Below, piece after piece: positions 48,375 through 50,640 of a stretch of 64,000 nt of DNA. Origin of the DNA: Bradyrhizobium sp. 200 (lineage in GTDB: Bacteria > Pseudomonadota > Alphaproteobacteria > Rhizobiales > Xanthobacteraceae); the NCBI RefSeq assembly GCF_023100945.1, contig NZ_CP064689.1:6430001-6494000 (forward strand). Direction: 5' to 3'. Under the pieces are notes generated by a model, which saw nothing but the letters and a program-made list of their open reading frames with translations, was not told the origin of the DNA and made no database searches. The stretch's first letter is position 1. Every line of letters starts with the position of its first letter. The translations under genes were made by a program, and so were the position numbers.

Positions 48375-48505
48375 TTACGCCGCCGCCTTCTTCCCCAGCC
48401 CGAGCGCATCGGCCTTTGCCGCGTCAGCTTCTTGTACTTCACGCGGTGCGGAATGATGCTGTCCTGCCGGAGCCTTCGCATCTTGTCCTTCTCGTAATCC
48501 TGGAA
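48375..48505 (-). pseudogene. Displaced, degenerate copy of the ettA 3' end
   Basis: Positions 48419-48505 match 48994-49080, the end of the functional ettA gene, at 78 of 87 bases. They encode [20 protein letters not shown] and [10 protein letters not shown]. Past the join a one-base slip is needed, after which the frame reads KADALGLGKKAA and ends in a stop at 48375-48377. As I know them, full-length EttA proteins of related bacteria end with a tail of this kind, so this piece probably holds the original end of ettA, now cut off by the intervening unknown gene. Confidence 0.7.
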
Positions 48506-48542
48506 ATACGATACCGAATCATCGAGAAAACACGGCGCCGCG

Positions 48543-49031
48543 ATGTTCTTTCCGAAGATCAACGTGAAGATTGATCCGGTCCGGCGATGGCACCGGCCCG
48601 ACCGGCACTTCTTCGCTAACGGCGCCTGTCAGGTTCTGGCCTTTGCGTTTCTGGAACGATATCCGGATCTCGAATTCCGCGCCCGATGGATCAAACCGGC
48701 GTCTGGATTCAGCGGCAACCACATCTACGTCACCGACGGGATCAACGCCTTCGACTATCACGGCCTCACCACCGAACAGCGCCTGCTCGCGTTGGTCTTC
48801 AGGCGCGGTCGGCGATTCTTTCCCGGCTGGGACGCCGCGTTGGTGGACCTGCCGGCCGATGTTCTGATTTCAGAACAGCGCTCGCGGCAGATCGAGGGAC
48901 TTTGGCTCCGCGAGCCGAAGCAATTCCTTCATGACGCGCTGCCCCGCGCGCGCAACTTTCTCGACGAATTCGGCGATATCAAGCAGCGGCTCACCGCGTC
49001 AGCTTCTTGTACTTCACGCGGTGCGGGATGA
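48543..49031 (+). CDS. Unknown protein encoded between the two ettA 3' ends
   Basis: A 162-residue frame that I do not recognise by family. It reads as a globular cytosolic protein: [60 protein letters not shown] and [20 protein letters not shown]. Conserved-looking Cys, Asn-His, Asp-Tyr-His residues might form an active site, but that is speculation. No ribosome site is obvious before ATG 48543. Its last 14 codons run antisense through the end of ettA ([10 protein letters not shown]), so the two genes overlap tail to tail by 41 bases. Codon use is GC-rich like the neighbours. Confidence 0.6.
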
Positions 49032-50640
49032 TGCTGTCCTGGCCGAGCCGGCGCATCTTGTCTTTTTCATAGTCCTGGAAGTTGCCTTCGAACCATTCGA
49101 CGTGGCTGTCGCCTTCGAAGGACAGGATGTGGGTGGCGATACGGTCGAGGAACCAGCGATCGTGGCTGATGATGACGGCGCAGCCGGCAAAATCCTCCAG
49201 CGCCTCTTCCAGCGCACGCAGCGTATCGACGTCGAGGTCGTTGGTCGGTTCGTCGAGCAGCAGCACGTTGGCGCCGGACTTGAGCATCTTGGCGAGATGC
49301 ACGCGGTTGCGCTCGCCGCCTGACAGCGCGCCGACCTTCTTCTGCTGGTCGGCGCCCTTGAAATTGAACGAGGAGCAATAGCCGCGCGAATTGACCTCGC
49401 GCTTGCCGAGCAGGATCAATTCATTGCCGCCGGAAATCTCTTCCCAAACGGTCTTCTTGCCGTCGAGATCGTCGCGCGATTGGTCGACGTAGCCGAGATG
49501 CACGCTTTCGCCGACGGTGATGGTGCCCTGGTCCGGCTTCTCCTGCCCGGTGATCATCCGGAACAGCGTGGTCTTGCCGGCGCCGTTGGGGCCGATCACG
49601 CCGACGATGCCGCCCGGCGGCAGCTTGAAGGTGAGGTTCTCGATCAGCATGCGGTCGCCGAAGGCCTTGTTGAGGCCTTCGAAGTCGACAACGTTCTGGC
49701 CGAGGCGCTCGGCGACGGGAATCGTGATCTGCGCAGTCGTGGTCTGTTTCTCGCTTGCCTGCTTCAGCAGTTCTTCATAGCGCTGATAGCGCGCCTTGGA
49801 CTTGGCCTGACGCGCCTTGGGAGACGACGCGATCCACTCCTGCTCGCGGGCGAGCGTCTTCTGATGCGCGACCTCCTCGCGCCCCTCCTGCTCGAGGCGC
49901 TTCTGCTTCTGCACCAGCCAGGACGAGTAGTTGCCTTCGTAGGGAATGCCGCGGCCGCGATCGAGCTCGAGGATCCACCCCGTCACATTGTCGAGGAAGT
50001 AGCGGTCATGGGTCACGATCAGGATCGCGCCGGGATAGTTGCGCAAATGGCCTTCCAGCCACGACACGGATTCAGCGTCGAGATGGTTGGTCGGCTCGTC
50101 CAGCAGCAGCAGTTCCGGCTGGTCCAGCAGCAGCTTGCACAGCGCGACGCGACGGCGCTCGCCGCCCGACAGCTTGGTGACGTCGGAATCGTCGGGCGGG
50201 CAGCGCAGCGCATCCATCGCCTGATCGACCTTGCTGTCGAGATCCCAGAGGCCCGCGGCCTCGATCTCGTCCTGCAATTTGGTCATCTCGTCGGCGGTCT
50301 CCTCCGAGTAGTTCATCGCCAGCTCGTTGTAGCGATCGAGGATCGCCTTCTGCTTGGCGACGCCCTGCATGACATTTTCGCGGACGGTGAGCGCAGGGTC
50401 GAGGTGCGGCTCCTGCTCGAGATAGCCGACGCGGGCGCCCTCGGCGACCCAGGCCTCGCCATTATACTCCTTGTCGAGGCCGGCCATGATCCGCAGCAGC
50501 GTCGACTTGCCGGAGCCGTTGACGCCGAGCACGCCGATCTTGGCGTCGGGGTAGAACGAGAGATGGACGTTATCGAGCACCTTTCGGGTCGGGTAGCTCT
50601 TGGTCAGACCCTGCATGAAATAGACGAACTGGCGAGCCAT
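48991..50640 (-). CDS. ettA: EttA, energy-dependent translational throttle (ABC-F ATPase)
   Basis: Soluble ABC-F protein of 549 residues that binds the ribosomal E site and gates translation by ATP level. Two ATPase domains are seen: Walker [19 protein letters not shown] and signature [16 protein letters not shown] in the first, [18 protein letters not shown] and [16 protein letters not shown] in the second. The interdomain P-site tether region ([20 protein letters not shown]) lies between them. The start is ATG 50640 (MARQFVYFM). The C-terminus stops at [10 protein letters not shown], about 15 residues short of what I expect. A degenerate second copy of the 3' end with the missing tail lies beyond the unknown gene. 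Confidence 0.96.

Follow-up and report, generated by a model that had tools for sequence, protein, structure and literature searches.

How does a core gene come to stand intact beside a second copy of its own end, with another gene lodged between the two? The question is raised by a stretch of 64,000 nucleotides, hereafter the window (G000:C1:6430001-6494000), taken from a closed chromosome of 9,494,728 bases (9.49 Mb) in one contig, the relatives of which are Bradyrhizobium. Comparison of the window with itself reveals a direct repeat of 87 nt, where positions 48419-48505 match 48994-49080 at 78 of 87 bases with a spacing of 575 (BLASTN E 1.9e-28). The proximal copy (48994..49080, reverse strand) lies inside the 3' end of ettA (48991..50637, reverse strand), an intact gene for an ABC-F translation factor of 548 aa, ending in KKLTR and a stop, that scores 956 bits with TIGR03719 and 952 bits with NF008775, both above cut-off. 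The distal copy (48419..48505, reverse strand) is identified as an orphaned ettA 3' end by the repeat itself and by comparison with the relative G028, with respect to which 10 nt, stop codon included, have disappeared between 48418 and 48419. An earlier note on this DNA had claimed this second ettA end and, between the copies, one gene on the opposite strand. Both are confirmed, the gene being an ORF of 162 aa at 48543-49031 (forward strand), which we name X and the end of which overlaps the proximal copy.

Two other answers were considered and rejected. An assembly error is unlikely, because the chromosome is closed in a single contig and the copies differ at 9/87 bases as well as by the deletion. 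Nor is the distal copy the remnant of a second ABC-F gene: it is closest to the ettA ends of relatives, best of all to that of G031 (84/87), with 83/87 in G028. The best matches of the proximal copy are G061 and G018, at 85/87 each.

Two alleles behind ettA

The earlier note took KADALGLGKKAA for a native tail of ettA, retained by the distal copy only. This does not survive comparison: KKLTR followed by a stop ends 113 of 115 ettA loci examined in the genus (103 TGA, 5 TAA, 5 TAG), the remaining two being unusable because they are cut or frameshifted. In G028 and G103 the stop comes right behind KKLTR, so that the stretch resembling KADALGLGKKAA lies past the stop codon. In these two genomes ettA is followed directly by a flank and then by a gene for a UPF0114 protein, an arrangement that we name the empty-site allele. 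The same flank is found in the window at 48219..48418. Behind it come the gene for the UPF0114 / TIGR00645 membrane protein (47472..48062, reverse strand; PF03350, E 5.9e-39), which synteny shows to be the next gene in many relatives, and an ORF of 421 aa (46203..47468, reverse strand), presumably mltB, which, by its synteny with ettA in relatives, marks the far border of the variable interval.

Several repeats of the window may be mentioned in passing. Inside the empty-site flank lies a palindromic dispersed repeat of about 124 nt (48249-48372), with arms of 31 nt that are 97% complementary; similar stretches occur at many sites in other genomes of the genus, and one more in the same chromosome (C1:4922287-4922418, 79%). 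An Rfam search of 47900-51000, palindromic element included, returned nothing at E <= 1. Elsewhere, a pair of direct repeats of 105 nt (33148-33251 / 35493-35597, 84%) adjoins ORFs of 227 and 235 aa, and another of 77 nt (14910-14984 / 15576-15652, 83%), the ends of which look inverted (GTAGCCCGGATGAGCG...), possibly represents a dispersed repeat family.

The second arrangement contains X. Among the matches listed, where weaker ones may be missing, X is near ettA in at least 18 of 265 same-genus genomes, the window's included. In 14 genomes other than the window's (G251, G019, G023, G252, G100, G235, G136, G226, G227, G163, G077, G176, G018 and G027) a convergent X overlaps the ettA end, forming what we name the X allele, while in G024 X is displaced from ettA. 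The searches made found no second ettA end in 13 of these 14, the exception being G019. As X and the intact ettA end together form an allele in its own right, the proposal, made in the earlier note, of a partial duplication followed by gene insertion finds no support. That note had also named, as an observation that would tell against its own reading, relatives in which ettA ends at KKLTR with the same neighbour throughout; the ending is as described, the constant neighbour is not.

A joint between the two alleles

The window unites both alleles, having X and the intact ettA end on one side, the orphaned ettA 3' end and the empty-site flank on the other. It matches the empty-site genome G028 at 92% from 47963 to 48505, and the X genomes from 48508-48510 onward (G019 at 96%, G023 at 94%, and also G251 and G252). 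The switch from G028-like to X-genome-like sequence thus takes place at a non-homologous joint, 48505..48508, where the orphaned ettA end meets the leader of X. A match spanning this joint is found in none of the other 264 genomes of the genus. The ettA gene of the window is mosaic, since the positions at which four X genomes differ from G028/G103 fall into clusters along it (24 runs in 73 sites, P 0.0012).

It might be argued that the two-copy state is old, and that the empty-site relatives were derived from it by recombination of repeat with repeat, cleanly removing X. A crossover between the repeats would yield precisely an empty site of the G028 type, and the distribution of X, with its 18 or more genomes out of 265, is patchy. 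Yet the two-copy joint occurs in no other genome of the 265, G028 and G103 keep the 10 nt that are missing from the distal copy of the window, and G019, as described below, unites the same two kinds of allele at another point, so that we hold this scenario to be quite improbable.

Scars in other genomes

Scars of the same geometry exist in four other genomes, G024, G197, B. tropiciagri SZCCT0338 and G019, where remnants of 10 to 99 nt accompany cargo that is mostly different. The remnant extends over 99 alignment columns in G024, 34 nt in G197, 14 nt in B. tropiciagri SZCCT0338 and 10 nt in G019, as compared to 87 in the window. In all four the copies part 0-1 nt past the ettA stop, and in the window just before it, as a result of the 10-nt deletion. 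Parting at the stop is what is expected if a donor ettA end brought its own downstream DNA.

In G024, ettA is followed by 1.4 kb with ORFs of 216 and 227 aa (the latter matching PF00182, chitinase class I, and a PHROG endolysin), then by the remnant, X and UPF0114. The arrangement recurs in record L188 (B. lablabi CCBAU 23086), and we take the two together as one case. In G197 a DUF4424 gene (337 aa, PF14415) comes behind ettA, and an exact remnant of 34 nt begins 5 nt past the stop of that gene; the flank is 95% identical to that of the empty-site genome G044, from the first base past the G044 ettA stop. A donor-type allele is known for this case, as G130 has the order ettA-DUF4424-mltB, with DUF4424 63% identical and no significant second ettA end in the locus. 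B. tropiciagri SZCCT0338 (L184) has one gene of 279 aa behind ettA, then 14 nt of ettA end, then X. In G019, ettA and X precede a second copy of the UPF0114 leader and a stretch made of 10 nt of ettA end and 9 nt of flank, identical to G028 and G218 at 19/19 positions. Behind this remnant comes a gene region that, in G090, adjoins ettA directly (74% over 462 nt). The duplicated UPF0114 leader of G019 is found at L032:2423-2477 and 3560-3614, and the two leaders enclose an ORF of 284 aa. G019 and the window, which share the cargo X, may stem from one event followed by different trimming; the cargo of G024, G197 and B. tropiciagri differs from that of the window.

Three of these genomes show that insertion behind the same anchor was repeated, older genes being pushed away. 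Two genes stand ahead of the remnant and X in G024, and one in B. tropiciagri, while in G019 it is X that stands ahead of the remnant and of the gene that directly follows ettA in G090.

A staggered cut or a transposition event, inserting X and duplicating the ettA end as its target site, would likewise leave an insert flanked by direct repeats. We consider this highly improbable. The four other scars part at the ettA stop, a position that a staggered cut need not respect; the longest repeat has about ten times the length of the shortest; each of the window's two copies is closest to different relatives; and X adjoins ettA elsewhere without any repeat.

A site-specific integrative element, or a decayed island, that attached at the ettA 3' end and left X behind as cargo would account for five genomes in which one side of the insert has the restored gene end and the other side a repeat of it, and for remnants whose starting points in the window and in G024 differ by no more than about 10 nt. 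It would not account for the absence of a fixed core shared by the inserts, nor for remnants as unequal as 10, 14, 34, 87 and 99. Of the 15 ORFs that were tested from the inserts and the interval (X, four genes of the other inserts and 10 more ORFs behind ettA), none was recognised as an integrase, and a second ettA end was missing, in the searches made, from 13 of the 14 other genomes where X overlaps ettA. Such an element therefore appears unlikely. The earlier note had pictured integration at the ettA 3' end with duplication of that end. Of this, an insertion or splice at this place stands, together with empty-site relatives and inserts bounded by remnants elsewhere, and site specificity finds no support; the same three observations, remnant sizes included, speak against the mostly deleted island that it suggested.

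Frequency and controls

An exact pattern of 15 nt from the ettA end is found in 205 of 265 genomes, 11 of which have it twice. The two patterns are close together in 2 of these (G024 and G197) and far apart or on different contigs in the other 9. The remnants of the window and G019, which do not have the full 15-nt pattern, were counted separately, bringing the scars to at least 4 of 265 genomes (window, G019, G024, G197), to which B. tropiciagri is added from another collection. Among 113 loci, suffixes of ettA of at least 14 nt gave one clear case, G024; partial matches of 14-16 nt at seven more loci were taken as chance. Local displaced copies were found for ettA 3' ends at 3 of 130 loci (window, G024, G197), and for other anchors, namely the ettA 5' end and middle and the ends and middles of UPF0114 and mltB, in 0 of 743 tests. 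This control set was not blind, since the window served as index case and the scars of G197 and B. tropiciagri were the reason for adding these two; most of its loci reach no more than about 160 nt upstream of ettA, a side on which copies would be missed, and the remnants of B. tropiciagri and G019 fall under the threshold of the search.

Other accessory genes are found behind ettA, among them a radical SAM ORF in G031, CHAT and SIR2-like ORFs in G006 and a Vut_1 transporter in G064. The large insertion of G006, between ettA and UPF0114 (L141:1888-6969), is perhaps a defence cluster. One could imagine that in Bradyrhizobium accessory genes enter preferentially at the ettA 3' end, piling up singly behind it with no integrase involved, and that some feature of ettA (a fragile site, a DNA structure or a recombination motif) drives this, beyond the mere conservation of its sequence; we find this rather doubtful.

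Gene X and its antisense tail

X (48543..49031, forward strand), convergent with ettA, has 635 homologues at E <= 0.01 and no match in searches of Pfam, NCBIfam, PADLOC and PHROGs. Measured on the first 144 codons of ten pairs, several of them near saturation at silent sites, its dN/dS lies between 0.06 and 0.17. These values indicate purifying selection and thus a working gene where X is intact; it is frameshifted in G023 and G027. Residues C29, H60 and D71 are invariant across 48 aligned sequences, and we assume that they could form a triad of the papain- or transglutaminase-like thiol-enzyme kind. The best match to a solved structure, with E 0.76 only, is not meaningful.

The 3' end of X (codons 151-162 and the stop) is antisense to the ettA 3' end over 41 nt (48991..49031). 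Relatives of X at 50-57% identity were found at eleven loci of other genera (nine Thalassospira, one Rhodospirillaceae genome, one Xanthobacteraceae MAG), and another of this class in L190, a MAG titled Bradyrhizobium. As these twelve align only up to residue 143-159, the antisense tail looks like an addition within Bradyrhizobium. No ettA is present near them in the stretches fetched. In G205 (L210) and G167 (L209/L166), X is located between UPF0114 and mltB, where it has its own stop codon and no antisense ettA tail. In the window, only 37 nt of the DNA upstream of X come from the X allele, and a crude promoter scan gave 0 promoter-like sites where 0.5 were expected, so that X may be silent there.

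A probable recombinant of natural alleles

We can best understand the locus as a recombinant of two natural alleles, and it is likely that it arose by one-sided recombination anchored in ettA. A fragment with ettA and X would have entered a cell carrying the empty-site allele, where homology would have paired it within ettA, while its far end would have been joined illegitimately within the recipient ettA, by homology-facilitated illegitimate recombination. Alternatively, the fragment might have circularised and undergone a single crossover in the ettA end. By either route ettA would stay intact, X would be gained, and the old ettA end would be left as a decaying remnant; an empty-site fragment entering a genome bearing X would produce the same structure. 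Transfer, the involvement of RecA and the route are inferred from genomes. A donor ettA end, joined with its own downstream gene in the recipient ettA end, would explain the geometry of the scars, their remnants of unequal length, copies that part at the stop codon, a mosaic ettA and the existence of donor-type alleles. The presence of X with the ettA end in 14 other genomes and the mosaic structure of the window ettA both speak for a recombinant origin.

Flank identities and informative sites, tried as a test of direction, gave no decision, and lean, if anything, against entry of a fragment with X. When four X genomes are set against G028/G103, the window has the X-group state at 78/114 sites to the left of the locus and at 53/92 to the right. 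These counts lean to the reverse direction or mirror the closeness of G028 and G103 to each other: the background of the window may be X-like and the empty-site flank the incomer, or that closeness may be all that they express.

Some observations go against the recombinant origin. No donor-type allele was found for the inserts of G024, searched by its 216-aa gene, and of B. tropiciagri. Relatives of the 279-aa gene of the latter occur in G200 (57%) and G244 (47%), where the 11 kb retrieved contain no ettA, and G185 gives a weak partial match; the single relative of the 216-aa gene is in G150 (33%). The remnants of the window and of G024 begin no more than about 10 nt apart within ettA. Those of 10-34 nt could not themselves have served as the homology, being too short, and one has to assume that they were trimmed or that the anchor lay more upstream. 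Finally, local direct repeats are not rare in general, with 9 pairs in 392 kb.

Known systems and what the locus means

The process is a known one, and ettA is apparently new as its anchor gene. Homology-facilitated illegitimate recombination is described for S. pneumoniae, A. baylyi and P. stutzeri, and for conjugation in E. coli (PMC3240628), where 56/60 clones scored as partial duplications, 14 of them sequenced (109-950 bp). The likeness with our locus extends to one homologous and one illegitimate end, to inserts of about 1 kb and, in E. coli, to partial duplications of the end of the homologous gene; the classical products, however, mostly delete recipient DNA, whereas here the ettA end is duplicated, and the case is known from genomes alone. 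For T6SS effector-immunity modules and Rhs tips, PMC5361080 proposes sequential displacement, a new module being placed behind a conserved upstream anchor while the old 3' part is shifted downstream. Insertion behind an anchor and the stacking of genes by repeated events are common to both situations, but the pieces displaced in those arrays include immunity genes that selection presumably retains (PMC5361080), and at our locus an intact core gene serves as anchor and the displaced ettA end seems to have no use. Islands in the 3' end of protein-coding genes, such as SGI1 in trmE (PMC8409611), resemble our locus in having an intact end on one side and a repeat of it on the far side; they differ from it in that here no integrase was recognised, no core is fixed and inserts comprise one or two genes. 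Among the titles and beginnings of abstracts listed on ettA and integration, and on illegitimate recombination in Bradyrhizobium, none deals with this locus, which falls short of proving absence, and a term search of PMC11476347 gave no mention of ettA.

X ends antisense inside ettA, and moving the whole of X therefore means moving the ettA end as well. The locus and its counterparts provide base-level scars of one-sided recombination, in several species, at an ordinary core gene. As a signature, the orphaned 3' end of an adjacent core gene is simple, and genome-wide counts of it could measure the entry of single accessory genes into chromosomes without the machinery of mobile elements.
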